From: Buttiauxella gaviniae
GTDB lineage: Bacteria > Pseudomonadota > Gammaproteobacteria > Enterobacterales > Enterobacteriaceae
Assembly: GCF_040786275.1 (NCBI RefSeq)
Contig: NZ_JBFMVT010000002.1
Location: 3,038,001 to 3,102,000, forward strand
Length of the DNA stretch: 64,000 bases
Direction: 5' to 3'
The translations under genes and the position numbers were made by a program. Below, piece by piece: positions 46,606 to 64,000 of this stretch. Each line of letters begins with the position of its first letter. Within the stretch, counting starts at the first letter, position 1. The notes below the pieces were generated by a model. That model searched no databases and was not told the DNA's origin. It saw only the letters and a program-made list of their open reading frames with translations.

Positions 46606-46621
46606 ATATAAGGGGGAAAGG

Positions 46622-47999: not shown

Positions 48000-48278
48000 T
48001 TATTTTTTCTTGTAAACGTCTGCGGTGCCATGGATTTTATTTTCGGTGTCTGCGGAAGTCACAACGTAGAATTGACCGCCCAGTTCGTCAGCTTTTTTGG
48101 AAAGCTCTTCTTTGGCATCACTCGGTGCAGTTTCACCGGAGGTAGTAATGGTGCCAATTTTCACGTACTGATCTTTATGGTCATTTAATGCTTCCTTAGT
48201 CAATAATTCAGCCGATACCGCACCGAAAGAGACTGCACCCAAAGTTAACGCAACCAAAATACCCTTAGCTATCTTCAT
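48000..48278 (-). CDS. BhsA/McbA/YdgH (DUF1471) family periplasmic stress protein
   Basis: Small secreted protein of 92 residues. A cleavable signal peptide is visible (MKIAKGILVALTLGAVSFGAVSA). The mature part is the DUF1471 fold, with VKIGTITTSGETAPSDAKEELSKKADELGG and YVVTSADTENKIHGTADVYKK. Family members are induced by acid, peroxide or chlorine stress. Start chosen at MKIAKG because a GAGGT site lies six bases upstream; an ATG four codons earlier overlaps that site. Confidence 0.85.
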   Translation of the reverse strand: MKIAKGILVALTLGAVSFGAVSAELLTKEALNDHKDQYVKIGTITTSGETAPSDAKEELSKKADELGGQFYVVTSADTENKIHGTADVYKKK

Positions 48279-48392
48279 GACGTACCTCATTTTTGATAAT
48301 GGAAGATCACGTGTTTTCCCTACTTTAAGACTATGGTTCAGAAATACGATTCTTGCCAGGCAGTTACAGCGTAATCAATAATTATTCTTTCA

Positions 48393-48516
48393 ATACCCGT
48401 CATACTTCAAGTTGCCTGTGCGTTGGCTTTCCTCACTCACCCCCGTCACTTACTGGAGTAAGCTCCAGGGATTCACTGCGTCACCGCCTGCCTGCAACTC
48501 GAATTATTTTGGGTAT
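48393..48516 (+). repeat. Single ERIC (IRU) element
   Basis: A complete 124-base element from ATACCCGTCATACTTCAAGT to AATTATTTTGGGTAT. The core CACTTACTGGAGTAAGCTCC followed by AGGGATTCAC matches the classical ERIC consensus better than the tandem array copies. It occupies the 374-base gap between the BhsA-like gene and ydhS; the rest of the gap holds promoter-like A/T-rich sequence and no gene. Confidence 0.93.
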
Positions 48517-48652
48517 ACATTTAAATTTTGAAGCCGGGTTTTCACCTTCGGCTATAATTTTTTAATCGCTATTTTTTCGATTTTTAGCTTTTGGTGAGCC
48601 TGATTCCGGGCGTACGAATGGACGATAAGAAGATAACGCTGGATGAGAATTG

Positions 48653-50263: not shown

Positions 50264-50270
50264 CGTAAAT

Positions 50271-50309
50271 AAATCCCTCTCCGTCAGCTTGAGTGCGGAG
50301 AGGGATTTT
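50271..50309. terminator. Bidirectional terminator after ydhS
   Basis: AAATCCCTCTCCG and CGGAGAGGGATTT form a perfect 13-bp stem around a 12-base loop, with T tract on both strands. It lies between the convergent ydhS and epimerase genes. Confidence 0.9.
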
Positions 50310-50335
50310 CTGCGATTTATATTTTACCGTTCGGC

Positions 50336-51235
50336 CTAACTGCCCGTGGTTCTTAATACGTCGTCGACAAAACTTTTTGCTCGCGGAATATCATGCTCAT
50401 CGACATGTTCAATAATGAGCGGAAGATTCGGGTGCTTTTGCGCTAACCGTTTTAAATAGAGTGGGTAATTTAACGATCCTAATCCGGCGGCGGGTAACTC
50501 CACCGAGCCCGCCCCACGGAAGCTATTATGTTCGGCGGCACCGCCGCCAAATTTTTCTGCAACCGCATCGGTTCTTTTGCAGTCTTTGGCATGGGCGATT
50601 TTAATTTTGCTTTCCAGCACGTTGAAAATGCTGTGCAGCGTTTCATCGATGGCGTCTATGTTTTTATCATCATAATAATTGGTCGGATCCAGGGCCAGAC
50701 CTAATCCAGGGTGTTCAATCTCGCTCATCAGGCGAGCCACCTGGCTTACGGAGCCGATGATATTATTCACGTAGTTTTCAACCAGGAATACCGCGTTATG
50801 TTCGTAGGCGAAGGTCGCTAACTCCTGGGCGATGGCTTTAAATTCCTGGTAGGCCTCTTCGGTGCTGTTTTTCGGATCATAAAGCCAGTCGCTGTCGGTG
50901 TTATAGGTGCCCGTTTCACTGATGACATACGGCGTGCCAAAATCGCGGGCGTGGGCCAGAATCTCCTTCACCGCCGCAATGTTTTCTTCCCGTTTAACCG
51001 GGTCGGGGTGAACCAGGTTGGTATAAGCGGAAATTGCCACGATGGGCAAAGAGGCCTTGCGAAATGCATCCCGCACCTGATGCGCTTTCTCTTTAGTTAT
51101 TTTCCCGCGACGGAGATCAACGTCGGTAAATTCAAGATCCAACTGCACGCATCCCATGCCTGCCTGTTTAATTTTATTGATGGTTTCGTTGAGGGAATAA
51201 GGGTAATAACCTGTAAAAATACCGACGTTAATCAT
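50336..51235 (-). CDS. Sugar phosphate isomerase/epimerase (AP endonuclease 2-like TIM barrel)
   Basis: Cytoplasmic TIM-barrel protein of 299 residues in the xylose isomerase-like superfamily, which interconverts keto-sugars or isomerises inosose-like compounds. Conserved metal-site elements are visible: FLVENYVNN (Glu), GLALDPTNYYDD (Asp), KIAHAKDCKR and IIEHVDEHD. Start chosen at MINVGIFTGYYP after a GGAG site. The gene overlaps the upstream Gfo/Idh gene by four bases (ATGA), so they form one unit; inositol-type or unusual hexose pathways use such pairs. Confidence 0.82.
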   Translation of the reverse strand: MINVGIFTGYYPYSLNETINKIKQAGMGCVQLDLEFTDVDLRRGKITKEKAHQVRDAFRKASLPIVAISAYTNLVHPDPVKREENIAAVKEILAHARDFGTPYVISETGTYNTDSDWLYDPKNSTEEAYQEFKAIAQELATFAYEHNAVFLVENYVNNIIGSVSQVARLMSEIEHPGLGLALDPTNYYDDKNIDAIDETLHSIFNVLESKIKIAHAKDCKRTDAVAEKFGGGAAEHNSFRGAGSVELPAAGLGSLNYPLYLKRLAQKHPNLPLIIEHVDEHDIPRAKSFVDDVLRTTGS

Positions 51236-52362
51236 TTTGTATTCTCCGGTAATATTTCGTTGAGATAGACGGTTCTCTCTTCCTGAATTGAGACATAGCA
51301 AGCCTCAATGCAGGCCAAGGTACTGAGGTTATCTTGGGCGCTAATTAATGGAGGGCAGTTATCTTCAATCGCACACATTAAATTTGCCATGGTGCCAATA
51401 AAAGCATCCGGGAACCACTGTCTCTCCCAGCGCGGCGTGACCCAAAGCCCTGGGTTATCCCGAGATGCCAGTTTAAGGGTACTACCACAATATTCAGGTT
51501 CGCGGCGATGCCAGCCGAAATCCCCTTCCGCCAGGCCGTCGGTGCCTTCTACTCGCCAGTTTATATAGTTGTTTTTCGCACAGGGCGCTCCTGGCCACGC
51601 CCACACATCGTCCAGGCTTGTGGCAATAAGGCCATTTGCGTACTGGAAGGTGTATTGGGTGATGCCATCGGTGTGCGCAAATTTCGTTCGCGGGTCAGTT
51701 CGGCAAAGTGCGGTAATTTTTAGCGGGTTACCGAATAAAAAGCGGAAGGCGTCAATATGGTGGATAGCCATGGCGTACAGTTCCAGCTTTTTATAATCCT
51801 GTAAGAAAATCTGCCAGTCCGGAATAGCGCGCATATCAATGGAGGCGATAACGGGGTTGCCGATCAGTTGCTTCTCAATAATATATTTCAACGCGCGGAT
51901 AGACGGGTCATAGCGCATATTTGAGTTGACCGCGATGGGAATGCCACTCTCTTTGCTAAGGCGCACAATTTCTTGCCCATCTTCTAACGACATCGCCAGC
52001 GGTTTTTGGCAAAGAATACCTTTGATGTGTCTTGCGGGTGAATCAGGGGAGCAGATAAAACGCACAATTTCGAGCTGAACATGAGGCGGGACGGCAATAT
52101 CAATAATCTCTATCTGCGGATCGCAGACCATCTCTTGCCATGTCGCATAGACCTTATTTATGCCAAATATTTCCGCAAGACGCTGGCTGTGGCTCGGCTC
52201 TCTGGACGTAATCCCGTATGTTGTAAAACCTGCTTTTTGGTAGGCGACCAGATGGCAATGTTCCACAATAAAACCGGCGCCAATGATGCCAATTTTATAA
52301 TGAGAATGTTTGGGCAGTGTGGGTCGGGTGGCATGCTCTAATTGCTGTAATAACGTGTCCAT
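51232..52362 (-). CDS. Gfo/Idh/MocA family NAD(P)-dependent oxidoreductase
   Basis: Sugar or cyclitol dehydrogenase of 376 residues. The N-terminal Rossmann fold starts YKIGIIGAGFIVEHCHLVAY (22-41). The family EKP motif is CQKPLAMS here, keeping the catalytic lysine but with Gln in place of Glu. An expected active-site histidine is in AIHHIDAFRFLFG. It is first of a two-gene unit, with its own 251-base upstream gap, separate from the main operon. Confidence 0.85.
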   Translation of the reverse strand: MDTLLQQLEHATRPTLPKHSHYKIGIIGAGFIVEHCHLVAYQKAGFTTYGITSREPSHSQRLAEIFGINKVYATWQEMVCDPQIEIIDIAVPPHVQLEIVRFICSPDSPARHIKGILCQKPLAMSLEDGQEIVRLSKESGIPIAVNSNMRYDPSIRALKYIIEKQLIGNPVIASIDMRAIPDWQIFLQDYKKLELYAMAIHHIDAFRFLFGNPLKITALCRTDPRTKFAHTDGITQYTFQYANGLIATSLDDVWAWPGAPCAKNNYINWRVEGTDGLAEGDFGWHRREPEYCGSTLKLASRDNPGLWVTPRWERQWFPDAFIGTMANLMCAIEDNCPPLISAQDNLSTLACIEACYVSIQEERTVYLNEILPENTK

Positions 52363-52551
52363 AGTACCCCAGAGAGTATTGAAAGTAAAAGAAGATGAAT
52401 TGACTTTAGTCCGCCGGGCTAAAGAGTGTCATAGGTAAAATTCTCTACAATATGGATGCGAATCTCATGGCTTGCGTTATGTGAGTAAGCTCAAAAATTA
52501 AGCAGTCATGGCGGCAGTTGAGAAGGGTAGAAATATAACGAGAGCGGGTTT

Positions 52552-52576
52552 GCCTGCGCCCGAAAAGGCGCAAGGC
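52552..52576 (-). terminator. Hairpin after the aldolase operon
   Basis: GCCTGCGCC and GGCGCAAGGC form a stem with one mismatch around CGAAAA, 37 bases past the stop of the last operon gene. The 251-base gap 52363-52613 otherwise holds only the promoter region for the Gfo/Idh unit. Confidence 0.55.
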
Positions 52577-52613
52577 GTAAGCGGTGGGGAGGACTAATCA
52601 AGATGGTAGATGT

Positions 52614-53531
52614 CTATGCCTTATTACCGATGACTCCGGCGCGCAGCAGAATATTTTTAATTTCCACTTTCATCTCTTCCGTTAAAGGTGAGGCGGGTGG
52701 GAGAGAATGTACCTGTATATTTAAACCGGTTAGCTGCAAGGCATATTTCACGGCGTTATAGAAGGGCAAGTCCATACTATAAAGAGGTGGAATCCAGGAG
52801 AGGGACTGCTGAAGTTCCACTGCCTGGGCAAACTCTTGCTTGCGATAAGCCTTCAGAATCCCACAGGTAAGGTGTGGCGCGAAGTTCGCGCTGGCCGGAA
52901 TACAGCCATCTCCGCCAAGAATCAGGGTGCCCAGCAGGTATTCATCGTAGCCTGCGAAAATGGCGAAGTCAGGGCGATGCGGTTTTACCGCATGAATCGT
53001 TTCGCGGATATGCGACAGAGTATCAACGGTATCTTTGAGGCCAACAATATTCGGGCAGCTTAATGCCAGCTCACGAATGATATGGACCGGGATCTGCTGG
53101 CCGGTTAACGCCGGGAAATTGTAGAGAAGAATCGGCAACTCAAGGGCGCTGGCGATGGTTTTGTAATGGTTTAGCAGGTTGGCTTCGCTGAGCGGGTTAT
53201 ACCAGGGGTTAACCACTACCACGCCGCTTGCGCCCGTGCGTTGGGCATGCAGGCCAGCGTCAATGGTTTGCTGCGTGCCGGAGTGCGCAATGCCAATCAA
53301 CACGGGTTTTCTGCCCCCCACCTGGCGTATGCAGAACTCGGTAACTTGCTTACGCTGCGCCTCAGACATATGGGCGAACTCCCCGGCGCTGCCGAGGAAA
53401 AACAGACCGTCTACCGGGGAAGAGATCAAATGCTCAATAAGCGTCGCCTGTGCTGCGCCATCAAATACGCCATGGGCATCAAACAGCGTTGGAACCGGGG
53501 GGATAACGCCACTAAAACGAGGTTTATTCAT
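52614..53531 (-). CDS. DHDPS/NAL-family class I aldolase
   Basis: Pyruvate-dependent Schiff-base aldolase of 305 residues. The fold is seen from FLGSAGEFAHMS (46-57), and the active-site pair Tyr137 (LLYNFPALTG) and Lys166 (NIVGLKDTVD) is present. In sugar-acid pathways such enzymes split 2-keto-3-deoxy acids to pyruvate and an aldehyde. That matches the dehydratase gene upstream in the operon. It is the last gene of the eight-gene run, 24 bases after the carrier. Confidence 0.87.
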   Translation of the reverse strand: MNKPRFSGVIPPVPTLFDAHGVFDGAAQATLIEHLISSPVDGLFFLGSAGEFAHMSEAQRKQVTEFCIRQVGGRKPVLIGIAHSGTQQTIDAGLHAQRTGASGVVVVNPWYNPLSEANLLNHYKTIASALELPILLYNFPALTGQQIPVHIIRELALSCPNIVGLKDTVDTLSHIRETIHAVKPHRPDFAIFAGYDEYLLGTLILGGDGCIPASANFAPHLTCGILKAYRKQEFAQAVELQQSLSWIPPLYSMDLPFYNAVKYALQLTGLNIQVHSLPPASPLTEEMKVEIKNILLRAGVIGNKA

Positions 53532-53555
53532 AATTTTCTCCAGCAGGATAATCGG

Positions 53556-54860
53556 TTATTTAACGGATTTTATCGGTAAGACAAAAAATGAAGAGGCAAA
53601 AACAAAGATGATGGCGGCAATAAATAACGTTGAGTAATCATTATTAAATACCGACAGTAGCCACGCGGAAAGAATAGGGCTGAACGATTGCGGTAATACG
53701 GTGGCGATAGTCAGAATACCCATATCTTTACCGGCCTGTTTGCCGCCGCCGGGTAATACTTGCGTCATCAATGCCATATCAATGGAGGTATAAGCCCCGT
53801 AGCCCAAACCCAGAATTGCCGCGTAGTAATACATGCCGTTTAATGTAGGCACGAATAACGGAATCATCAAGCCAATTGCCATCAGAATGCTGGAGGCGAA
53901 CACAAAGATTTTACGGCGCTGGTATTTATCGGAAAGATAACCGGAAACCAGGCCAGAAAATAGCAAGGTGACTAAGGTAATAATGGAGATAGTGCCAATC
54001 GCGTAGTTGGAATCTTTAACGCTTAATCCAATATAGTCCTGAAGGATATACAGTTGGTAAGTCACTACCCCCTGATAACCGAGAAACATGGCGAAGCGGC
54101 CAAAGAATGCCCAGCCAAAATCTGGATATTGACGCGGGCTTACCCAAAAACTTTTGAAGAAGGTTCCCCATTTAAACGATTCCACTTCCAGCGTTCGGGT
54201 GGAGGGTTCACGGTTGATAAGCACAAATGCCACGCAGCACGCGATGATGGCAAGCCCGAACACCAGATAACCTAATTGCAGATTCCATGCGAGATAACCG
54301 GCGACAATGATCCCCACCGTACCGCCTGCGGTGGAGCCCGCACCCACAAAGCCTGAAGCGATACCACGGTTTTCAGGCCGGAAGCGGTCGGCAACCACCG
54401 TGGCTAAGGGGCCATTCATGCAGTTGAGCGAAACGGCCGCCATCAACCAAAATACGGCAATTCCCGCGACGGTAGTCACCATCGAAATCCCAAAAATCGC
54501 CAGCCCGCCGATGAGCGCCCCGCCGACAATCCACGGTGAACGCCGCCCCCAGGTGGAACGGCAGCGGTCAGATAATGCCCCGGCAATCGGCTGCGCGAAT
54601 ATCGTAAATAACAACGCCGATGTCATAACAATAGCCAGATTATTGGCTTTGTTTGCCGGATCTATTTGCGCGATATGGTTAGGTAATAAAACCGAAATTA
54701 CCCCGCAATAAAGCGCCAGTAAAACGAAGAAATTAGTAAATAACGACGCAAGGAGTATTTTCTTTTTTCTCCCTGAAACCAGTAAGGTATTTTCTGATGT
54801 TTTATCGCGAAACTGGCTGCCTGCAGTAGTAGGGTGCAGGGCATTGCTATTATCAGACAT
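53556..54860 (-). CDS. MFS sugar transporter (SLC45/GPH-like)
   Basis: Inner-membrane carrier of 434 residues with about 12 membrane segments. The loop LSDRCRSTWGRRSPWIVGGALIG between segments 2 and 3 is typical of sugar symporters such as sucrose and glucuronide carriers. It lies 69 bases after the amidohydrolase gene and is the only transporter in the operon, so it probably imports the pathway sugar. Confidence 0.85.
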   Translation of the reverse strand: MSDNSNALHPTTAGSQFRDKTSENTLLVSGRKKKILLASLFTNFFVLLALYCGVISVLLPNHIAQIDPANKANNLAIVMTSALLFTIFAQPIAGALSDRCRSTWGRRSPWIVGGALIGGLAIFGISMVTTVAGIAVFWLMAAVSLNCMNGPLATVVADRFRPENRGIASGFVGAGSTAGGTVGIIVAGYLAWNLQLGYLVFGLAIIACCVAFVLINREPSTRTLEVESFKWGTFFKSFWVSPRQYPDFGWAFFGRFAMFLGYQGVVTYQLYILQDYIGLSVKDSNYAIGTISIITLVTLLFSGLVSGYLSDKYQRRKIFVFASSILMAIGLMIPLFVPTLNGMYYYAAILGLGYGAYTSIDMALMTQVLPGGGKQAGKDMGILTIATVLPQSFSPILSAWLLSVFNNDYSTLFIAAIIFVFASSFFVLPIKSVK

Positions 54861-54929
54861 GCTTATTTCCTCAATTATTATTTTCAGCAGGGTGTAGCGA
54901 AATAAACGACATCCAAACCTTATTTGTGA

Positions 54930-55790
54930 TTATCCTCCTGAACCTGATAAATAAACCTCACGGGTATTTCCGGCCATAATGGCGTGTTTGTCACACGCGG
55001 GCAGATCCGTAATGGCTTTTTCAACGCACTGTTTCCAGCGTGAGTAGCCGCCAGCGAGATTGATAACGGGCCAGTCGCCTCCAAATAGACAGCGGCCTGC
55101 GCCGAAACAGGCGATTGCGTGCTGGATCCACGGGGCGAGTTGCTCATCTTGCCAGGTTTGCCAGTCTGCTTCCGTAGGCAGACCTGAAATTTTGCAGTAC
55201 AGAGAAGGGAACGAGGCAAGGGTAGCCAATGCGTTTTGCCAGGCGTCCCGGCCGTTGTGGGCAACATCCGGTTTTCCCATGTGATCTAACACCACTCGCG
55301 CAGTCGGTTGCTGTGTAAACAGCCAGCTTAAAAGGTGATAAACAGCAGGCAATTGCTGTGCCCGGACACATAAATCGAGAACAAAACCGGCTTCTGCCGC
55401 CGCCAGCAGACCCGCGCGGTAATGGGCATCATAAAAAAGCGCGAGCGGCTCATTCTGAAGTGAGCGGCGAATCCCCACCACGCGGGGCATGGCGCGTAAC
55501 TGGTGCAGCAGGGGAATCACCGATTCGCCCTTTTCCAGCGGTGCCCAGGCTACGATACCGGCGATGGGAAAAGGGGAATGGGCGGCTTGCTGGTTAATCC
55601 AGTTCACCTCATCTAACACCTGATTTTCCGCGCAGTCGGCCTGAACAACGATAGCCGCGTTCGGGATTTCCCCTTGGGCTGCAAAATGCTCGGGCAGATG
55701 CGCATGGTTAAGCTGTGGAACATCGCGAAGCCAGGCGTAGTCCAGCCGCCGCGGGTCCCACAGATGCAGATGGCTGTCTACCAGCGTCAT
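54930..55790 (-). CDS. Amidohydrolase-2 family sugar lactonase
   Basis: TIM-barrel hydrolase of 286 residues starting VDSHLHLWDPRRLDYAWL, with the family His pair at about 6 and 8. It closely fits the L-fucono-1,5-lactonase/L-rhamnonolactonase group (VLDHMGKPDV; CLFGGDWPVINL). In this operon it would open the lactone made by the aldo-keto reductase. Its start overlaps the aldo-keto reductase stop (ATGA). Confidence 0.85.
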   Translation of the reverse strand: MTLVDSHLHLWDPRRLDYAWLRDVPQLNHAHLPEHFAAQGEIPNAAIVVQADCAENQVLDEVNWINQQAAHSPFPIAGIVAWAPLEKGESVIPLLHQLRAMPRVVGIRRSLQNEPLALFYDAHYRAGLLAAAEAGFVLDLCVRAQQLPAVYHLLSWLFTQQPTARVVLDHMGKPDVAHNGRDAWQNALATLASFPSLYCKISGLPTEADWQTWQDEQLAPWIQHAIACFGAGRCLFGGDWPVINLAGGYSRWKQCVEKAITDLPACDKHAIMAGNTREVYLSGSGG

Positions 55791-56737
55791 TTTTGGGCTT
55801 TTCCCCCGTTGCCGGGCAGCACGTCCCAGCCCAGATTGAGCACGGGTGCCAGCAGGGCATCTATTTTCTCAAGCAATGCGCCGTCCAGCGGCCGATCGCT
55901 CCAGCGCACATTATCCAGCATGTTTTCCTGGCTGGCGGTACCGATAACGGTGGAGGCGATGCCTTGTTCAGCGGCGGTCGTCAGAGCAAACTGCAGCGCC
56001 ACCTGCGAAATAGGGGTGCCTTCGCGATCGCACAAATCAGAGACGGCGCGGCAGGCGTTCTGTACCTCCTGATGCGCCGGATGCCAGGCCGGTGCGCCAC
56101 TGCGGGTCAGCAACCCCATCGACAGCGGCGAGGCATTGAGCACGCCGATTCCGGCCTGGTTTAGCCGCCTTGCCACTGCCCCCAGGCGGCGATCCTGTAG
56201 CGTCCAGGTGCAGTAAGCCATCACGGTGTCGACTTTCTGCTCAATCGCCAGCTTTTCCAGGAATGCGAGGTCGTAACCGGTAATGCCGACGTGCCGCACA
56301 ACACCGCTCTTTTGCAGTTCACGCAGCGTGGGAAGCGCCTCCTCAACCACCTGGCGTAAGTCGCCATATTCAACGTCATGGCACTGGATTATGTCGATAT
56401 AGTCTGTGCCAAGACGCGCCAGGCTTTCATCCACGCTGCGTAGCGTTGCCTCCCGGGAAAAATCCCATTGGCTATCGCCGTAGCGCCCGACTTTGGTTGC
56501 AAGGGTATAACTTTTGCGTGCTACCCCTTTTAGCGCGATGCCCAGGGCCGTTTCCGCTTTGGTTAAACCGTAATAAGGCGCGACATCAAAATAGTTAACC
56601 TCATGCGTAAGCGCCGCTGCCACGGTTTCATCGGCTTGGTGCTGCGAGACGGGGTGATAAATGCTGCCCAACGATGCGGCACCCATCGCCAGAACGGGAA
56701 CCTGAATGCCTGTGCGCCCTAAAGCTACTGTTTTCAT
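55787..56737 (-). CDS. Aldo-keto reductase, L-fucose/D-threo-aldose dehydrogenase type
   Basis: Oxidises an aldose to its lactone in related pathways. The 316 residues retain the catalytic tetrad: Asp51 and Tyr56 (YFDVAPYYG), Lys82 (ATKVGR) and His120 (IIQCHDVEYG). The FDVAPYYGL-TKAETALG block is typical of the sugar dehydrogenase subgroup rather than reductive AKRs. It starts 15 bases after the dehydratase gene. Confidence 0.87.
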   Translation of the reverse strand: MKTVALGRTGIQVPVLAMGAASLGSIYHPVSQHQADETVAAALTHEVNYFDVAPYYGLTKAETALGIALKGVARKSYTLATKVGRYGDSQWDFSREATLRSVDESLARLGTDYIDIIQCHDVEYGDLRQVVEEALPTLRELQKSGVVRHVGITGYDLAFLEKLAIEQKVDTVMAYCTWTLQDRRLGAVARRLNQAGIGVLNASPLSMGLLTRSGAPAWHPAHQEVQNACRAVSDLCDREGTPISQVALQFALTTAAEQGIASTVIGTASQENMLDNVRWSDRPLDGALLEKIDALLAPVLNLGWDVLPGNGGKAQK

Positions 56738-56752
56738 TTTCCTGTTCCCTGG

Positions 56753-57910
56753 TTATTCATGATGTTGTGTGGATCTAAGGGATAAACGCAGCCCGGCCCG
56801 AGCAGGGCGAACGTGAGGCCCTTGCGGTGTGGCCCAACTCCCTTCGTTGAGGTGGTGAGTCAGCGCATTTTCATCCACGGTGATCCCGAGCCCCGGTGCT
56901 TCGCCCAGGATAATTCCGCCATTTTCGATGCGCTGATCGACGTGCAGCCCAAGCGGGAAATCCAGGTCCTGAACTTCACAGCTCAAATGGTTGGGAATCG
57001 CCGCCGCTGCGTGGGCGACAGGGTTGGCGTTATAGCCGACGGGGCTTACCGGTAAATTGAACGCGTGAGCAAGATTGGCGACGCGCAGGAAATGGCTGAT
57101 TCCCCAACACATCCCGGCCTGCAAGACATCCACAGCCTGTTCGCGTAGCAGCGGTTGAAATTGTTCGATGCCGGTCAGATTTTCCCCGGTGGCGACGGCG
57201 CAGTTTGTTTGCTGGCGAATGAGCGCGTGACCGGCGGCGTCCCAGCGTCTGACGGGTTCTTCAATCCAGCTCAGATCGAGCGTTTCTTCCAGGCGTCGCA
57301 CGTAGCGCACGGCCTGTTTGGCGCTCATAGATTCATTTACATCAATCATGATTGCCGGGGAGGGGGAGTTGCACAGGTACACTTCCCGTACCGCACGCAA
57401 ACGCTCAATATCCTGCTCAACGTCGAGGCCGCCTTTAAGTTTGAAAGCGCTAAAGCCGCGTTCTGCAAAACGGCGATGCAAATTCACTAACTCGCTAAGA
57501 GATAAGGGGAAATCCAGCCCAGAGGCGTAGCCGGGCACAAACGGCGAGCGAGCCCCCAACAGCCGCCAAAGTGGCTGGTTTGCCAGTTTGGCTTTCAGAT
57601 CCCACAGCGCCATATCGACCACGCCAATCGCCCCGAAAACAGAGCCCGCATGGCCGCTTTTAAAAACCCACGACTGCATTCGGTCATAAAGGGCGGTGAC
57701 GGCACGCGGATCTTCCCCTTCAATTGCCGGGAAAATACGCGCGATATCCGCGTGCCCGCCCAGCCCGACTCCGCAAACGCCTTCATCCGTTTCCAGGATG
57801 AGCAGGGGAACTTCCGTCACACCCGAATCAACGGTGCCATTAATATCGCCGATGGGTCGCCCCCAGCGATGCAACGTTTTTAGCGAACGCCAGCCTGTGA
57901 TTTTCATCAT
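56753..57910 (-). CDS. Enolase-superfamily sugar-acid dehydratase, His-Asp dyad absent
   Basis: Mandelate racemase/muconate lactonizing family protein of 385 residues. It keeps the KxK motif (Lys157, Lys159 in SAFKLKGG) and metal ligands Asp190 (IMIDVNES), Glu217 (WIEEPV) and Glu243 (ATGENLTG). The dehydratase subgroup normally has an Asp in a PD motif and a His in an SPHG-like motif; here these are Ala265 (VLQAGMCWG) and Val291 (PVSPVGYN). Metal binding looks intact, but proton transfer must differ, or the enzyme is an epimerase or racemase. The gene lies nine bases after the mutarotase. Confidence 0.85.
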   Translation of the reverse strand: MMKITGWRSLKTLHRWGRPIGDINGTVDSGVTEVPLLILETDEGVCGVGLGGHADIARIFPAIEGEDPRAVTALYDRMQSWVFKSGHAGSVFGAIGVVDMALWDLKAKLANQPLWRLLGARSPFVPGYASGLDFPLSLSELVNLHRRFAERGFSAFKLKGGLDVEQDIERLRAVREVYLCNSPSPAIMIDVNESMSAKQAVRYVRRLEETLDLSWIEEPVRRWDAAGHALIRQQTNCAVATGENLTGIEQFQPLLREQAVDVLQAGMCWGISHFLRVANLAHAFNLPVSPVGYNANPVAHAAAAIPNHLSCEVQDLDFPLGLHVDQRIENGGIILGEAPGLGITVDENALTHHLNEGSWATPQGPHVRPARAGLRLSLRSTQHHE

Positions 57911-57919
57911 TCCTCCCTG

Positions 57920-58420
57920 TCAGTTAAGTTCTGGAACGACGTTGTCGCGAATACGCTGGCGTCTTGCGACATAGGCGGGAAGCGGGGCTACACCCGATTG
58001 TTCGGTAAACCAGGCAAACGGATCGGTGCTGGCAACCAGCGCGAAATTAGCCCAGGGGTTGAATGAGCCGGAGCGGATAATCACTTTTGCCCGATGGGCA
58101 ATATCGTGACACAGCGTTTCGTGGCTGGCGGTGTGAAACTCTGCGCCGGAGCCGGTATAAATTGACTGCACATCACGGTAAAGCTGCGGATGGCAATCGC
58201 GCACTTCGCTGGCAAAATGCACCTCTTCGGCAAAAATCTCCTGGCGAAGGACGCGCAAAATCTCCAGCACATCGACCTGGCCTGGCCAGAATCCTAAATC
58301 AATACGTTTTGCCTGGGGGGCAATCGGGAAGCCCGCGTCCGTCACTAAGACGATGTCGGTATGGCCTAAGGTGGCTAATGCAGCGGCGAGTTCAGGGTGT
58401 AAGATTCTATCGGGTCTCAT
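57920..58420 (-). CDS. RbsD/FucU-family sugar mutarotase
   Basis: Interconverts sugar anomers (pyranose/furanose and alpha/beta). The 166 residues include LGHTDIVLVTDAGFPI and the C-terminal RSGSFNPWANFALVAST block. It is longer than RbsD (139) and FucU (140) by about 25 C-terminal residues (DPFAWFTEQSGVAPLPAYVARRQRI). Start chosen at MRPDRILHP; a longer in-frame version overlaps the kinase gene. It sits five bases after the kinase and nine before the dehydratase. Confidence 0.83.
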   Translation of the reverse strand: MRPDRILHPELAAALATLGHTDIVLVTDAGFPIAPQAKRIDLGFWPGQVDVLEILRVLRQEIFAEEVHFASEVRDCHPQLYRDVQSIYTGSGAEFHTASHETLCHDIAHRAKVIIRSGSFNPWANFALVASTDPFAWFTEQSGVAPLPAYVARRQRIRDNVVPELN

Positions 58421-58425
58421 TTTTT

Positions 58426-59355
58426 TTATTCCTCTGCGACGAGCATGTTTTTCATAAAGGCATCGATTTCTGCGCGATGGCGATAGGAGGGCACCGTCTC
58501 CCAATGGGTACAGCACAGCGCCGCGGTGGCGTTTGCCAGTAACACGGCGTCGCTGATGGATTGGCCTTCATCCAGCGCCACCGCTAAAGCCGCGTTAAAG
58601 CTGTCACCTGCGCCATTGCTGTCGACAACGTCGACTTTACAGGGCGGGATTTCCTGCGTGTCGTTATGGCTGAAAACGGCAGAACCGGCGTCCCCCAGCG
58701 TCATCACAACATACTGGCAGCCCGTTTCGAGCAAGAGATCGGCGATTTCACGGTTGCTGCGTGCATCATCGGGTGCGAGCCCAAGTGCGACGCGTGCTTC
58801 GGTTTCATTGGGGGTCAGGTAATCAATGGCGCTGAGATCGACCCCGCGTAAATTGCGGGCCGGGGCAGGATTAAGAATCGTCACTTTCCCCAACGCTTTG
58901 GCTTTGCGTAAGCCGTAGAGTGCGGTATCCAGCGGGATTTCAAGCTGTGCAAGAGCGACACCGGCGCGTTTAAGCTCAGGCAAGGCCTGATCCACCAGGG
59001 CGGGAGTAAAGAGTTTGTTGGCCCCCATATCCACGACAATGATATTGCGTGCGTCCTTATCTTTAATGATGAGCCCGGCACCGGTAGGCAACGCTTTTGT
59101 GATGGTAAGCGACTGAATATTGATGCCTTCCTGCTGCATCAGGCTGACAAATTCGTGCCCGAAAGCGTCATCTCCTACGACGCCTGCATAAAAAACATCA
59201 GCCCCAAGCCGTGCCGCCTGAACGGCCATATCGGAGCCTTTGCCACCCCAGGTCTGGCGAAAATCGTCGCCAATGAGCGTTTCACCCGCCAGGGGAATGC
59301 GGTCAGCGGTCATAACCAGTGCTTTCGCGTAGCTACCGAGAATAAATACACTCAT
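58426..59355 (-). CDS. PfkB-family carbohydrate kinase (ribokinase-like)
   Basis: ATP-dependent sugar kinase of 309 residues. N-terminal MSVFILGSYAKALVMTADRIPLAGETLIG and the GGKGSDMAVQAARLGADVFYAGVVGDDAFG block mark the family. The catalytic Asp is in DSNGAGDSFNAAL. Start chosen at MSVFIL after an AACGGAG site; in-frame extension upstream lacks family similarity. It would phosphorylate a sugar for the DeoC-like aldolase encoded just upstream. Confidence 0.87.
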   Translation of the reverse strand: MSVFILGSYAKALVMTADRIPLAGETLIGDDFRQTWGGKGSDMAVQAARLGADVFYAGVVGDDAFGHEFVSLMQQEGINIQSLTITKALPTGAGLIIKDKDARNIIVVDMGANKLFTPALVDQALPELKRAGVALAQLEIPLDTALYGLRKAKALGKVTILNPAPARNLRGVDLSAIDYLTPNETEARVALGLAPDDARSNREIADLLLETGCQYVVMTLGDAGSAVFSHNDTQEIPPCKVDVVDSNGAGDSFNAALAVALDEGQSISDAVLLANATAALCCTHWETVPSYRHRAEIDAFMKNMLVAEE

Positions 59356-59427
59356 CACATACTCCGTTAACTGTGCTGTCTGTTTTATTGAAAATGCCGC
59401 CGCCATAAGAGTGACGGCATCCGTCGA

Positions 59428-60129
59428 TCAATAAGCGTTGATGTCCCCTGTCAGGCCTTTCACTAATTCCGGGCCGGAACTGGTGCCGACCAGCTCTGCG
59501 CCAGCCATAAACATCTCTTTCATTTTTTCCAGCGTGTTGACTTTACCGGAAACTTTTACCCGGCAGGGGGCCTGAATATTGGCTTTGAGAAGTCGAACAT
59601 CTTCGGCGGTTGCCGCGCATCCCCCTTTGCCCCAGCCGCTGGACTGTTTCACCCAGTCAATGCCCGCTTCGTAGGCATAACGGGTGGCTTTGATCTTCAT
59701 TGCCTCTTCAGTAATGAAGCCAAATTCCAGCATCGCTTTAACTTTCATGCCCAAGTCATGTGCAATGTGGGTAACTTGTTTTAGTTCATTGAAGTAAAGG
59801 TCATCCAGGCCGCCGAGTAAAAAACCTGGGTTAGGAGGGAAATCGAACTCGTCCGCCCCTTCTTTTACCAGCTCGCGTATCACGGCGACTTTCATGGCGG
59901 TGGTGTCGTTGGCCTGCGGGAAGTTAACGGTGGTGGCAACCCGGACGCCGCTGCCTTTCAGGACGTCTTTTGCAACGGAAACCCAACAAGGGGCAATCAT
60001 TGCTGCGTCAAATTGATACTCCATGCAAATATTCAGGTGCTGGATAAGCCCTTCGCGCGTCAAATCCGGACTGACGTTAGTAAACTGGATGGCACTCGCT
60101 ACCTGACGGGGATCGTTAAAATCAATCAT
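59428..60129 (-). CDS. DeoC-family class I aldolase
   Basis: Deoxyribose-phosphate aldolase-like enzyme of 233 residues, first gene of the operon. Schiff-base Lys161 (WVKQSSGWGKGG), the second active-site lysine (Lys192 in CRVKVSGKV) and the acidic residue Asp96 (DEFDFPPNPG) correspond to the deoC catalytic residues. The FPPNPGFLLGG sequence differs from deoC enzymes of nucleoside catabolism, so the substrate is probably another phosphorylated sugar. It is divergent from the AraC gene. Confidence 0.87.
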   Translation of the reverse strand: MIDFNDPRQVASAIQFTNVSPDLTREGLIQHLNICMEYQFDAAMIAPCWVSVAKDVLKGSGVRVATTVNFPQANDTTAMKVAVIRELVKEGADEFDFPPNPGFLLGGLDDLYFNELKQVTHIAHDLGMKVKAMLEFGFITEEAMKIKATRYAYEAGIDWVKQSSGWGKGGCAATAEDVRLLKANIQAPCRVKVSGKVNTLEKMKEMFMAGAELVGTSSGPELVKGLTGDINAY

Positions 60130-60267
60130 CTACCTTTACTCCTATTGGCTAAGTTAACGCACGACTATTTATGTGGTGAATATGACGTTTACTTTAGGCA
60201 GCGATGGCGGAGAGCGTAATAGCTGGAATTCCATGCGATATGGACAGAATTTCCATGTCAACAAAGT

Positions 60268-60283
60268 TGTGAGCTTGTTCAAA
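60268..60283 (+). promoter_or_regulatory. CRP-like site in the deoC-family/AraC divergent gap
   Basis: TGTGAGCTTGTTCAAA matches the CRP consensus TGTGA-N6-TCACA at 9 of 10 fixed positions. It lies 138 bases upstream of the operon's first start codon and 103 before the AraC start, and suggests catabolite control. The 256-base gap holds no gene. Confidence 0.5.
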
Positions 60284-60385
60284 AATCTATCAGTGCTATA
60301 ACGACATTTCATGTTTTTGCCGCATCGCCATGCCACGATGAACTAAGGTGTGTGGAGCGTTTTGGGGCTCAAACGGGGATCTGTC

Positions 60386-61282
60386 ATGGAAAAAATCGCG
60401 CAGCAAACGCAGATTCTGGCGAACTGGTACCGGGAGTCAGATAAGTTTTCGACGCTGATGAATTACCAGATTTTGCGCGCAGGCCATATTCGTACCGCAG
60501 AAAACTTCCGCGTGAGAAGGCAGTCGGTGGTGGGGCATGAGCTGATTTTCTGCCTGAAAGGCAGTGGCTTTGTCCGCCTGGAAAATAGCCTTTATGAAGT
60601 CAACGAAGGCTGCCTGGTCTGGCTCCCCGTCCGCTGGCCGCATGAACATTTCCCCGATAAAAATGACCCATGGGAAATATTATGGCTGCGCATCGATAGC
60701 GAAAAATTAAGTAATATCATGCAGATTCTGGATGTTCCGCAAAATCCGGTATTCCAGTTTGAAAGCCCGGAAAAGGTGACTGAAATTTATCACCATATTT
60801 TCAGCTTAATGAAAAGCCATACCCTGGTGACGGACGCCCATTGCGATGAACTCTGTTCGCGGCTTATTTTCACCTTACTTGAGAATCGCAGCGCCGAAAC
60901 CACAAAGTCTCCGGTTATTACCCATCGCGGCCTCGGGCGATTGATTTATCAGATTCACAGCCATTACAGCGATGACTGGGATATTGAAAAATTTATGCAG
61001 TACTGCCAGGTGAGTAAATCACAACTTTTCCGCTTATTTCAGATGACGTTTAACCAAAGCCCATTGCGCTGGTTAAAAAATTATCGTTTATCCCAGGCGC
61101 GCCGCTTACTGGTTGAAACGCAGGAGTCGATAGGGCGAATTTCAGGCCTGGTGGGGTATAACGATCCGCTGCACTTTTCCAGGGATTTCCACCGTTCGGT
61201 AGGGTTATCCCCCAGCGAGTTTCGCCGCCGGGAGCAACGTCTGGACTGGGAGCAAAATAACTCAGGCGAGGGTTCACGTTGA
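60386..61282 (+). CDS. AraC-family transcriptional regulator
   Basis: Sugar-responsive regulator of 298 residues. The N-terminal half is a cupin-type ligand domain (FCLKGSGFVRLENSLYEVNEGCLVWLPVRWPHEH). The C-terminal AraC domain has two helix-turn-helix units (DIEKFMQYCQVSKSQLFRLFQMTF and ESIGRISGLVGYNDPLHFSRDFHRSVGLSPSEFRR). Start chosen at ATG 60386; a GTG 36 bases upstream is possible. It is divergent from the aldolase/kinase operon and probably activates it. Confidence 0.87.
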   Translation: MEKIAQQTQILANWYRESDKFSTLMNYQILRAGHIRTAENFRVRRQSVVGHELIFCLKGSGFVRLENSLYEVNEGCLVWLPVRWPHEHFPDKNDPWEILWLRIDSEKLSNIMQILDVPQNPVFQFESPEKVTEIYHHIFSLMKSHTLVTDAHCDELCSRLIFTLLENRSAETTKSPVITHRGLGRLIYQIHSHYSDDWDIEKFMQYCQVSKSQLFRLFQMTFNQSPLRWLKNYRLSQARRLLVETQESIGRISGLVGYNDPLHFSRDFHRSVGLSPSEFRRREQRLDWEQNNSGEGSR

Positions 61283-61658
61283 TAATCAATGGCGAGATAT
61301 ATTCTTTTAATTAACGCCCGCCGTCATATTAATTAACAACGAATGTCATTATTTCTCTAATTTTGGGGCGTCGTAACACGCATCAAAAATGCTATTTAAT
61401 GTTTTTTAATATACTGTTTCACTTTGTATCATTTTTGATTATATTCATTGGTTAGTTAGCGTGTTAATTAAAATCTAATAACCGTTTTTGCTGTTTTTTA
61501 AACTATCGCGGAAGAGCTATTGTCCATTAATGGGTATTTATAAACCTCTCCTTGGTTGTGTTTGAATGAAAAAACATTGTTATTAATTATTTAATTAATC
61601 CCAGTATTTATAAAAATAACGATGGTATACCCAAAATTCAAATTCAAGAGAGGAAGCG
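61283..61658. other. A/T-rich gap before the adhesin gene
   Basis: 376 bases with no gene. It is much more A/T-rich than the flanks and contains several T-rich runs, as expected for an H-NS-silenced surface-protein promoter. Near its end, GTATACCCAAAATTC resembles the terminal bases of an ERIC element, but the rest of that element is missing. Confidence 0.5.
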
Positions 61659-64000
61659 GTGAGTCAATTACTCGGTGTCATTAAAGCTGTCATTGGTCAG
61701 GTTTATGTAGTTGAAGCGGATGGCTCACGGCGTCTTTTGAAAGAAGGCGACAGGATCTACAGCGGAGAAGAGATTGTCACGGGCGACAGCGGGGCGGTGA
61801 GTCTCTCTCTGCCGGACGGTAAAACGCTGGATCTCGGGCGAAACAGCCACTGGAGCGAACACGGCTTCAACGCGGTAAATAATGCAGAACATGATACTCA
61901 GGATGTTGCCTCGCTACAGAAATCCATTGCCGATGGCGTTGACCCGACCAAATCCTTAGAAGCCACCGCCGCAGGCAATGAACCGCCGGTAGCTATCGAA
62001 GGCGGCGGCGGGGGGCACACCCTCGTTCAACTGGAATTAACCGGGCAGCATATCGATCCCATCGGCGGATTCACGACCGCCGGGCTAAAGGTATCGACCC
62101 CAGAATTTGTCCAGCCTGAGAATGGTTTGGCCCCTGTTTCCACAGACAGTTCCACTCCTGAACAGCCGTCTTTGACGCCACAGATTCCGCTAACCCCGCA
62201 GGTACCGCAAACACCGCAAATTCCTCAGACACCGCAGACACCGCAGACGCCGCTGATACCGCAGATACCGCAGACGCCGCAAATTCCACAGACACCTCTG
62301 ACGCCGCAGCCGCCGCAGGCAGTTGAGACAGCAGAAAAACCGCTGATCAAAATTGACAACTTTGCGGGTAACGATGGGTTTATTAACAAAAATGAAATAA
62401 CCCACACCCCCATCAGCGGTACCAGCAACCAAAACCACATCACGCTGGTGGTTACGGATAGCCAAAAAAACACAATCACCCTTGATGTGCCCGTTGAGAA
62501 CGGCCGCTGGACTACACAGCCCGATCTCAGTGGTTTAGTGGATGGCGAGATTACCGTGCTGGCAACGGCGACGGATGCTGAAGGCCATACGGCGCAAACT
62601 ACCGCTGACGCACAGATCGACACTGTCGGCCCGCTGGACCACATCACCGTCGATAGCGTGACGCCTGATAATGTCATTAATATCGCCGAATCCCACGAGC
62701 CTGTTATCTCAGTCCACGGCCATGTTTCCGGCGATGCAAAAGTCGGCGATGCGGTTACGGTAACGGTAGACGGCAAGGATTACACCACGCTCGTCACTCC
62801 GATGAGCGACGGGACATTAGGGTACACGGTGGATGTCTCAACCCAGGGGTTACTGGCTAGCCCGGAGATCCACGCGGTTGTCACCTCAACGGACGAGGCG
62901 GGGAACACCACCCAGGCCTCGACGAATCACGCTGTTCATATCGATCTCGACATTCATAACTCCGTCACCATTGGCACCGTTGCGGGAGATGACGTTGTCA
63001 ACCGCACTGAATCTCGTATGCCGACGCTGATTTCGGGTGAAGCCGGAGGCGATGCGAAAGCGGGCGATCCGGTTACCGTCACGGTACAAGGCACGCAATT
63101 CCATGGTGTGGTGATTAACGACAACGGCCAACTGCGTTACGAAATCCCCGTCCCGACCAACTTGCTGCGCGAGGGGGACAATGACGTTGAAGTCCAGTTA
63201 GTCAGCCGTGATGCGGCGGATAACGAAGCCGTTGCGGTGGCGCACCATACCGTCACGCTGGACACCCACGCCGATGCTTCCATCACCGTCGATACCGTTA
63301 CCAACGATAACGTCCTGAATCACGACGAACTGGGTCAGCCGCAGTCGATCACCGGCATCGTGGGCGGTGATGCGCGCGTCGGAGATGCGGTGACGCTTGA
63401 GATCAACGGGCACCAGTACACCGGCCAGGTTGAAATGCAGGGCGGCTCGCTGGGCTACCGCATTCCGATCCCAGCGGGCGCGTTCGGCGACAACAGCCTC
63501 GGCGAAGTCAATGCCCACATGCGGTTTACCGCCAGCATCACCTCCCGTGATGCGGCTGGCAATATGGTCACTGAAACCACCGAACATACGGTACAACTGG
63601 ATAACCATGCCGATAACGGCGTGACCATCCGCGCCGTGGCCGGGGATGATGTGGTCAATCACGACGAATCACAGCACGACACCCTTATCAGCGGCGACGC
63701 CAGCGGTAAAGACGCGAAAGCGGGCGACAAAGTGACGGTGCATGTGCAGGGCCAGGACTTTGAAGGCCGCGTGTATGCCGATGAGCACGGTCACCTGCGC
63801 TATAACGTGGCGGTCACATCCGGCACGCTGAAGGAAGGTGACAACGATGTGCAGGTCACGCTGACCAGCCAGGATAAGGCCGGAAACGAAGCTGTTGCCG
63901 TGGCGCACCATAACGTCGTGCTCGACACCCATGCCGATGCGAGCATCACCATCGATCGTGTGACCAAAGACAACACGCTGAACCGCGAAGAGCTGCAAGG
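61659..64000 (+). CDS. Large LapA-type surface adhesin with retention module (3' end outside window)
   Basis: Giant biofilm adhesin, 780 residues seen and no stop before the window end. The GTG start follows a GAGGAAGC site. The N-terminal retention module covers about 1-145 (SQLLGVIKAVIGQVYVVEADGSRRLLKEGD; SLSLPDGKTLDLGRN). The LapG protease site is the dialanine TAAG at 103-106, followed by EGGGGGHTLVQLELTGQ and GGFTTAGL. Next come a Pro/Gln linker (167-220) and Ig-like repeats of about 111 residues (HTVTLDTHADASITVDTV type). Such proteins stay in the outer-membrane secretion pore until LapG cleaves them; type I secretion genes should lie downstream. Confidence 0.9.
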   Translation, partial: MSQLLGVIKAVIGQVYVVEADGSRRLLKEGDRIYSGEEIVTGDSGAVSLSLPDGKTLDLGRNSHWSEHGFNAVNNAEHDTQDVASLQKSIADGVDPTKSLEATAAGNEPPVAIEGGGGGHTLVQLELTGQHIDPIGGFTTAGLKVSTPEFVQPENGLAPVSTDSSTPEQPSLTPQIPLTPQVPQTPQIPQTPQTPQTPLIPQIPQTPQIPQTPLTPQPPQAVETAEKPLIKIDNFAGNDGFINKNEITHTPISGTSNQNHITLVVTDSQKNTITLDVPVENGRWTTQPDLSGLVDGEITVLATATDAEGHTAQTTADAQIDTVGPLDHITVDSVTPDNVINIAESHEPVISVHGHVSGDAKVGDAVTVTVDGKDYTTLVTPMSDGTLGYTVDVSTQGLLASPEIHAVVTSTDEAGNTTQASTNHAVHIDLDIHNSVTIGTVAGDDVVNRTESRMPTLISGEAGGDAKAGDPVTVTVQGTQFHGVVINDNGQLRYEIPVPTNLLREGDNDVEVQLVSRDAADNEAVAVAHHTVTLDTHADASITVDTVTNDNVLNHDELGQPQSITGIVGGDARVGDAVTLEINGHQYTGQVEMQGGSLGYRIPIPAGAFGDNSLGEVNAHMRFTASITSRDAAGNMVTETTEHTVQLDNHADNGVTIRAVAGDDVVNHDESQHDTLISGDASGKDAKAGDKVTVHVQGQDFEGRVYADEHGHLRYNVAVTSGTLKEGDNDVQVTLTSQDKAGNEAVAVAHHNVVLDTHADASITIDRVTKDNTLNREELQ
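62157..62318 (+). repeat. Pro-Gln-rich tandem repeat in the adhesin linker
   Basis: Encodes short repeats of the pattern PQxPxTPQxPQTP for about 54 residues, with the codon string CCGCAGACGCCG recurring. The near-identical DNA units could vary in number between strains by slipped pairing. Confidence 0.75.

Follow-up and report, generated by a model that had tools for sequence, protein, structure and literature searches.

We analyzed a 64,000-nucleotide stretch of the Buttiauxella gaviniae genome (the window, in whose positions coordinates are given) that carries a run of eight sugar-catabolism genes on the minus strand (52614-60129), divergent from an AraC-type regulator gene. The run very probably belongs to a larger regulon, since the same operator also precedes a second operon, gfo-tim, and a carrier gene. 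The window holds ten enzyme or carrier genes of this system in two operons, and the third unit lies elsewhere in the genome. The gene set is probably foreign and is built from a constant trio to which either of two exchangeable sets, or both, are joined; L-fucose-like sugars are the probable substrates of one of these sets. As an explanation, we tentatively favor parallel modules under one regulator, namely, an L-fucose/L-galactose-series oxidative route beside a furanose-kinase-aldolase route, to which we would give slightly less than an even chance.

The eight-gene operon and its shared operator

The features of the system are listed below, with the block or unit to which each enzyme or carrier gene was assigned.

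60386..61282, plus strand: divergent AraC-family regulator (Pfam HTH_18 77 bits, AraC_binding 50 bits; alternative start GTG at 60350)
60212..60285, minus strand: operator/promoter of the eight-gene operon (CRP-like TTTGA-N6-TCACA followed by a pair of direct repeats with 21-base spacing)
59428..60129, minus strand: deoC-like class I aldolase, 233 amino acids, constant block (Pfam DeoC 31 bits, TIGR00126 151.4 bits)
58426..59355, minus strand: PfkB/ribokinase-type sugar kinase, 309 amino acids, constant block (Pfam PfkB 181 bits)
57920..58420, minus strand: RbsD-like pyranase/mutarotase, 166 amino acids, constant block (Pfam RbsD_FucU 98 bits)
56753..57910, minus strand: enolase-superfamily (mandelate racemase-like) protein MLE, presumed sugar-acid dehydratase, 385 amino acids, oxidative block (MR_MLE_C 173 bits)
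55787..56737, minus strand: aldo-keto reductase (AKR), L-galactose/L-fucose dehydrogenase-like, 316 amino acids, oxidative block (Pfam Aldo_ket_red 173 bits)
54930..55790, minus strand: amidohydrolase-type lactonase, 286 amino acids, oxidative block (Pfam Amidohydro_2 135 bits)
53556..54860, minus strand: major facilitator superfamily (MFS) carrier, 434 amino acids, oxidative block (MFS_1 161 bits, MFS_2 51 bits)
52614..53531, minus strand: DHDPS-family aldolase, YagE-like, 305 amino acids, oxidative block (Pfam DHDPS 240 bits)
52425..52497, minus strand: second operator copy, 5' of gfo-tim (36.5 bits, E 1.3e-9; repeats 21 bases apart; outside the training set of the model)
51232..52362, minus strand: Gfo/Idh/MocA oxidoreductase (Gfo), 376 amino acids, second operon (GFO_IDH_MocA 58 bits)
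50336..51235, minus strand: xylose isomerase-like TIM-barrel protein (TIM), 299 amino acids, second operon (AP_endonuc_2 PF01261 85.5 bits)
C2:2629853-2631323 (L087:9854-11324): third operator copy, 5' of a lone MFS gene, about 0.47 Mb from the cluster

All eight operon frames are intact, with ATG starts and zero internal stops, and Pfam supports each of the families that the initial annotation had assigned, in the same order and on the same strand. The starts of pfkB and rbsD were taken at inner ATGs (59355 and 58420), the longest frames beginning further upstream. In operon order, the intergenic spacings are 72, 5, 9, 15, -4, 69, and 24 bases; the gaps of 5 to 72 bases reported initially were thus recovered except between akr and lac, which overlap by 4 bases. 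The run of eight genes is operon-like, with this one overlap. A 4-base overlap also joins gfo and tim.

The divergent AraC gene with a CRP-like site was likewise found as first annotated. The region 5' of deoC was aligned without gaps at 12 loci, the window's and 11 more, over 75 columns. The TCACA half of the CRP-like site was identical in 12 of 12 loci, and the other half was TTTGA in seven, TATGA in two, and TGCCA in three. The direct repeats have the consensus AATTCTGTCCAT and AATTCTGCCTAT and lie 21 bases apart (spacing measured at five sites). This operator is conserved across both types of locus described below, those with the oxidative block and those with Gfo-TIM.

A sequence-only operator model was built from the 12 aligned sites and used to scan the window together with 16 loci (371,580 bases). 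The site of the deoC operon scored 70.1 bits with this model (R1), but it belongs to the training sites. Besides the deoC sites, two untrained matches were obtained, one 5' of gfo in the window and the other 5' of the Silvania gfo (48.8 bits, E 1.9e-13). Genome-wide searches followed, in which 150 of 1,195 to 2,647 first-look candidates per genome were scored. Among the 150 scored of 2,052 candidates in the window's genome, the model matched the sites at deoC (E 5.4e-19), gfo (E 1.7e-8), and C2:2629853 (48 bits, E 4.4e-12), and the next match reached only 13.4 bits. The product of the distant MFS gene that follows the third copy is 51% identical to the MFS carrier of the operon. Thirteen other genomes were searched under the same limit. 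Zero matches were seen among the 150 scored candidates per genome in three of three same-genus genomes without the cluster, and 8 genomes carrying the cluster had a single strong site each; weak partial matches appeared in G004 and, as a second match, in G054, and no match was observed in G026, whose deoC is a fragment.

The features of a regulon are present, as a divergent AraC gene is accompanied by a direct-repeat operator with 21-base spacing that is repeated at other units, and AraC and CRP are both predicted to bind there. From these sequence matches, it is very probable that the eight-gene operon shares its regulon with gfo-tim (50336-52362) and with the distant MFS gene. The idea of eight genes forming one closed unit, to which the system had initially been limited, was rejected, because the second and third units carry the same operator.

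Distribution and module composition

Related loci were found in Budvicia, Biostraticola, Silvania, "Enterobacter sp. 10-1," a Sodalis species, Klebsiella oxytoca, Acerihabitans, and Klebsiella spallanzanii. Twelve intact loci were compared, each read over approximately 18 to 20 kb, so that genes scored as missing may lie elsewhere. Three decayed loci (L013, L052, and L053) were left out; L044, L045, L050, and L051 were not counted separately from L010, L009, L013, and L015, whose gene content they share; and L054 holds only a distant DeoC. AraC, DeoC, PfkB, and RbsD, which form the constant block, were present in all 12 intact loci. AKR, lactonase, and MFS were each present in eight, MLE in seven, and DHDPS, Gfo, TIM, and a porin in six each. 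In addition, a Zn alcohol dehydrogenase gene is inserted in 5 of the 12. The same eight genes occur in the same order in Acerihabitans (L015), and three further loci (L010, L012, and L014) hold all eight with one or two extra genes inserted. No description of this gene set was found in the open-access literature with the few terms used, most subscription papers lying outside that search; this is weak evidence of novelty.

By this comparison, the kinase/DeoC block is distinct from an oxidative block of non-phosphorylating type, in agreement with the two catabolic routes recognized at first. Four of the 12 loci have the constant block without the oxidative block, and there it is joined to Gfo-TIM. 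At least one of AKR and Gfo, and at least one of MLE and TIM, was present in every intact locus. The window alone combines MLE with TIM; in Silvania, AKR, lactonase, Gfo, and TIM were present, and MLE was missing from the stretch that was read. This mutual exclusion of MLE and TIM is suggestive only, with a Fisher p of 0.015 over the 12 loci, yet 0.14 over 8 genus-level loci when "Enterobacter sp. 10-1" is assumed to be Klebsiella-like.

A full-length DeoC orthologue (85 to 100% identity) was found in 9 of 295 genomes of the family, the window's own included, and fragments were found in two more. TIM (at E 1e-40) occurred in 5 of the 295 and AKR (at E 1e-45) in 6, one with an in-frame stop, each time with the constant block, counting G026, whose deoC is a fragment, and G054, whose pfkB is split. 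At E 1e-35, a search for DeoC across 369 genomes of the class returned the window's own genome only, and megablast of the operon against 5,426 Escherichia coli genomes gave zero matches. TIM homologues of 54 to 56% identity were found in 6 of 298 other genomes of the phylum, all of one genus, as well as on 30 plasmid records, of which 25 are from Sinorhizobium. Other homologues lie on plasmids of Lacticaseibacillus, Roseicitreum, Arthrobacter, and Klebsiella pneumoniae, with uninformative neighborhoods, and two Thermus matches were among the plasmid homologues; a Streptomyces record (L100) carried no annotation. The regulon is accessory and was probably acquired by horizontal transfer. Integrase-like frames, recognized by eye, lie near the cluster in three relatives (L011:16596-17903, L014:905-2152, and L046:13844-15097), hinting at a mobile island.

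Such patchiness would also be expected if mobile sugar genes had gathered under a convenient promoter, the blocks being metabolically unrelated and some of them dispensable or decaying. Decayed copies in G026, in G004, and at the Sodalis locus, and the loss of DHDPS or MLE from some loci, agree with such a chance mosaic. We nevertheless consider it very unlikely, as DeoC is 85 to 96% identical to the window's in eight relatives, the operator is conserved too, and copies of it precede gfo and the distant MFS gene. As for the decayed loci, L013 has its kinase in two pieces and no lactonase match, and L053 has a truncated deoC and a stop in AKR; both carry MLE together with AKR, lack TIM, and thereby follow the pattern of the intact loci. 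L052 is a cluster remnant with neither MLE nor AKR.

The oxidative block and the Gfo-TIM unit

The five best solved relatives of the AKR are all named L-galactose dehydrogenase (best E 3.6e-84) and are presumably plant enzymes. The sole NCBIfam match of the lactonase is L-fucono-1,5-lactonase (NF052480; 142 bits, cut-off 400). For the DHDPS aldolase, the nearest solved structure is YagE (E 1.4e-90), named as a probable 2-keto-3-deoxy-galactonate aldolase. A lactaldehyde reductase (FucO) gene is inserted in the Biostraticola locus (672 bits, cut-off 537), and homologues of AKR (42%) and lactonase (32%) lie near GH95 in Paenibacillus. Because of the AKR relatives, the lactaldehyde reductase of Biostraticola, and the GH95/GH141 neighbors of homologues, the oxidative block resembles a non-phosphorylating pathway of the L-fucose/L-galactose type. 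Of the L-fucose/L-rhamnose-type route proposed in the initial annotation, the L-fucose half therefore gained support. L-rhamnose as the favored substrate was rejected, as no specific support for it was found, though homologues of MLE adjoin genes annotated as L-rhamnose mutarotase.

L-fucose isomerase (FucI) gave no match in the window's genome and was missing from five of six AKR genomes, the window's included, whereas it was present in four of four Gfo-TIM-only genomes. This contrast (two-sided p 0.048) is post hoc and rests on related genomes, one of which is 85% complete. With the classical E. coli L-fucose pathway (fucI, fucK, fucA, and fucO), the system would share possibly its substrate and its lactaldehyde product; it differs in lacking a FucI match in the genome and FucK or FucA families among the eight genes.

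The oxidative block resembles the fum pathway of bifidobacteria (PMC6817895, PMC5080750). The fum genes of Bifidobacterium encode a non-phosphorylating L-fucose pathway with a 2-keto-3-deoxy-fuconate aldolase (PMC6817895), and fclABCDE is designated a variant of it (PMC5583593). The steps given there are a mutarotase, a dehydrogenase, a lactone hydrolase, a dehydratase, and an aldolase yielding pyruvate and L-lactaldehyde, with a propanediol oxidoreductase (PMC6817895, PMC5583593). At the level of gene families, the dehydrogenase, lactonase, dehydratase, and aldolase are all found in the window's operon, which offers candidates for all but the propanediol oxidoreductase, and the Biostraticola locus has a candidate for every step, with the RbsD-like protein as a possible mutarotase. 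The differences are that the window's dehydrogenase is an AKR of L-galactose dehydrogenase type, that the regulator is AraC-type and not LacI-type, that a kinase and DeoC lie in the same operon, and that the presumed dehydratase has no His/Asp pair.

The last difference concerns MLE, which keeps the KxK lysines and the metal-ligand motifs. Judged against four aligned solved relatives, it has Gln (or an alignment gap) for Asp and Val for His at the positions of the mandelate-racemase His/Asp pair in seven of seven orthologues. The pair, which has catalytic roles in the mandelate racemase group, is likewise gone in both distant homologues (Streptomyces and Croceibacterium). Structures of FucD, the Xanthomonas-type L-fuconate dehydratase, match MLE at 87.7 bits, behind 19 others; MLE is thus not a close FucD relative and lacks the His/Asp pair by which this group is recognized. 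Since the usual pair is absent, the reaction of MLE is uncertain and "dehydratase" is presumed; the enolase-superfamily assignment made at first holds, and the dehydratase part of it is in doubt. The best PDB match would make MLE a 3,6-anhydro-L-galactonate cycloisomerase, which was rejected because MLE does not conserve the His at which the two deposited sequences differ. No use was made of a structure prediction with a mean predicted local distance difference test score (pLDDT) of 43.2.

The distant MLE homologues, of 60 to 63% identity, are carried on Streptomyces and Croceibacterium plasmids. On the Streptomyces plasmid (L099:2185-17322), the homologue has as neighbors GH95, a protein with a GH141 domain, an AKR of lower similarity (34%), and a gene for L-rhamnose mutarotase. 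On that of Croceibacterium (L098:6952-12441), it adjoins a homologue of the operon's MFS carrier, an AKR (28%), a short-chain dehydrogenase/reductase, and an L-rhamnose mutarotase gene. These neighborhoods are possibly fucose-type clusters in other lineages.

For the Gfo-TIM unit, a known counterpart is the levoglucosan pathway LgdA-LgdB1-LgdB2-LgdC, in which a Gfo/Idh/MocA oxidoreductase works with proteins annotated as sugar phosphate isomerases (PMC7676230). The window has one Gfo and one TIM protein, a likeness at the level of annotation; its Gfo reached 57 bits with the model for levoglucosan dehydrogenase (cut-off 650). The TIM structure predicted from a two-sequence alignment had a mean pLDDT of 56.2. 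Foldseek with this weak model returned, in the best 50 of 302 matches at E 0.001, UlaE, YcjR, D-tagatose 3-epimerase, DgpB-C, and IolE. These are PF01261-type enzymes, and the matches are too weak to choose a reaction. In the four neighborhoods of rhizobial and Variovorax TIM homologues that were read (L062-L065), Gfo, TIM, a short-chain dehydrogenase/reductase, and a CoA transferase were seen in all four, and an annotated aldose 1-epimerase-family gene and an enoyl-CoA hydratase in three each.

The constant block and the possible routes

DeoC passes the curated deoxyribose-phosphate aldolase model TIGR00126 (151.4 against a cut-off of 117.3 bits) and keeps both lysine motifs. Five aligned solved relatives carry SGG[AVI]R, the region of the phosphate pocket in DeoC; the corresponding motif here is VSGKVN, which is invariant in nine of nine aligned orthologues, while the DeoC homologues of Halomontanus and Lacticaseibacillus keep SGG. 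The kinase scored 269.5 bits with the ribokinase model TIGR02152, under the cut-off of 299.65, and is therefore termed ribokinase-type and not filed as a ribokinase. Its 12 solved relatives at E 1e-25 are all named ribokinase. Compared with E. coli ribokinase, it has YAKA for INAD and GGKGSD for GGKGAN, residues with roles in sugar contact. The RbsD-like protein narrowly missed the D-ribose pyranase model NF008761 (88.4 bits, cut-off 93). The Zn alcohol dehydrogenase inserted in Budvicia, the only one scored, is AdhP-type (560.6 bits, cut-off 344), and acetaldehyde is suggested as a product because such a gene is inserted in 5 of the 12 loci. Overall, the constant block resembles a kinase/aldolase route of the deoxyribose type in which the substrate motifs are altered, and the likeliest class of substrate would be a 2-deoxypentose or a close analogue. 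On a plasmid of the haloarchaeon Halomontanus rarus (L101:7989-10281), a DeoC-ribokinase pair of 37 to 42% identity to the window's adjoins RbsD, with two Gfo genes near the group.

The deoK and deoC pathway of deoxyribose kinase and deoxyribose-phosphate aldolase (PMC6365646) is the nearest counterpart at the level of gene families: the window has a sugar kinase and a DeoC-family aldolase, plus the RbsD-like pyranase. Unlike that pathway, the sugar and phosphate contact motifs are altered, and the block is linked to oxidative or Gfo-TIM modules.

From these data we infer the substrates, the order of reactions, and parallel rather than serial use of the modules as follows. One AraC-type activator, together with CRP, would control the three transcription units through the shared operator. 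In the constant block, the RbsD-like protein would convert a sugar into its furanose form, the ribokinase-type kinase would phosphorylate its primary hydroxyl, and the DeoC-type aldolase would split the product into acetaldehyde and a triose phosphate. In the oxidative block, AKR, lactonase, and MLE would take an L-fucose/L-galactose-series sugar through the lactone and the acid to a 2-keto-3-deoxy acid, which the YagE-like aldolase would cleave to pyruvate and an aldehyde (lactaldehyde if the sugar is L-fucose). Gfo-TIM would serve as an NAD-dependent pair for sugar oxidation and epimerization or elimination, replacing the oxidative block in some genomes.

Several observations weigh against this explanation. 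The DHDPS aldolase is nearest to YagE and not to a fuconate-pathway enzyme, and the mutarotase-like protein matches the RbsD model and no fucose mutarotase model. FucO is inserted in only 1 of the 12 loci; 9 of 11 searched genomes, the window's among them, have FucO-family genes above the cut-off, with all but one copy outside the cluster, and both AdhP and FucO accept several small aldehydes. The Acerihabitans genome (G141), which has the oxidative block, does contain FucI. Given the altered sugar-contact positions of the kinase and the DeoC pocket motif, 2-deoxyribose itself may be the wrong substrate. The exclusion of MLE by TIM weakens at the genus level, as given above. Finally, no second sugar carrier was seen in the stretches read of five oxidative-block loci (L009, L010, L011, L014, and L015), and a shared substrate would fit the lack of a separate carrier for the constant block there better.

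The last point favors the main rival explanation, in which a single sugar enters through interchangeable front ends, Gfo-TIM or AKR-lactonase-MLE, that lead to one intermediate; RbsD, kinase, and DeoC would phosphorylate and split it, and the DHDPS aldolase would act as a non-phosphorylating side exit. At least one front end is present in each of the 12 intact loci, MLE and TIM coincide only in the window, with Silvania carrying TIM without MLE in the stretch read, and both locus types stand under one operator. As for carriers, two Gfo-TIM-only loci (L046, by reading, and L047, with 378 bits to TIGR00879 against a cut-off of 238) have a sugar-porter-type MFS gene between rbsD and gfo, and a third (L048) probably has one, as the gap is equal; the fourth (L049) is without it. 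The constant block has no visible carrier of its own in the five oxidative-block loci. However, an L-fucose-derived 2-keto-3-deoxy acid would offer this type of kinase no primary hydroxyl, the module exclusion is not significant at the genus level, and we know of no pyruvate aldolase in the DeoC clade. We regard this single-sugar scheme as possible but doubtful. Its more specific form, in which the two non-homologous front ends give the same deoxy intermediate, which the kinase phosphorylates and DeoC, its anion pocket rebuilt, splits in a new phosphorylating route under one AraC operator, appears rather unlikely.

Alternatively, the 2-keto-3-deoxy acid of the oxidative block could be phosphorylated by PfkB and split by DeoC, in a branched Entner-Doudoroff-like series. 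PfkB kinases include 2-keto-3-deoxygluconate kinases, although model NF040938 gave 56 bits here, far under its cut-off of 400, and the new lysine in VSGKVN could meet a carboxylate. Still, the solved relatives of the kinase are all ribokinases by name, an RbsD-type partner suits an aldose, and 4 of the 12 loci keep kinase and DeoC without a known acid-forming block, unless the acid comes from Gfo-TIM. Were L-fucose the sugar, a ribokinase-type enzyme would find no primary hydroxyl on the acid, which argues against a hand-over. This serial order seems quite improbable. The initial annotation had also allowed the second route to be a simple continuation of the first, which does not agree with the kinase/DeoC block being the constant part and standing without the oxidative block in those four loci; it is not simply a second step of the oxidative route. 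Of the two options offered at first, one sugar processed by both routes and an intermediate handed over, either would be compatible with the sequence.

The three-unit regulon and its natural module swapping, with the same operator and core and two enzyme sets, provide a comparison that could reveal a new enterobacterial sugar route. Moreover, they bring forward two enzyme subfamilies whose active-site motifs differ from those of the aligned solved relatives (four for MLE, five for DeoC), namely, MLE, with an other-phylum homologue near fucosidase-family genes, and DeoC with its remodeled anion pocket.

Around the system, an Rfam scan of the window from 48000 to 64000 at gathering scores found nothing. 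A 780-amino-acid open frame that runs off the window (61659-63998) had no Pfam family above its cut-off and contains 9/27-base repeats at 62181-62318. At 45538-47893, an isocitrate/isopropylmalate dehydrogenase-family gene is followed by a DUF4147/MOFRL gene, which we take to be glycerate kinase-like.

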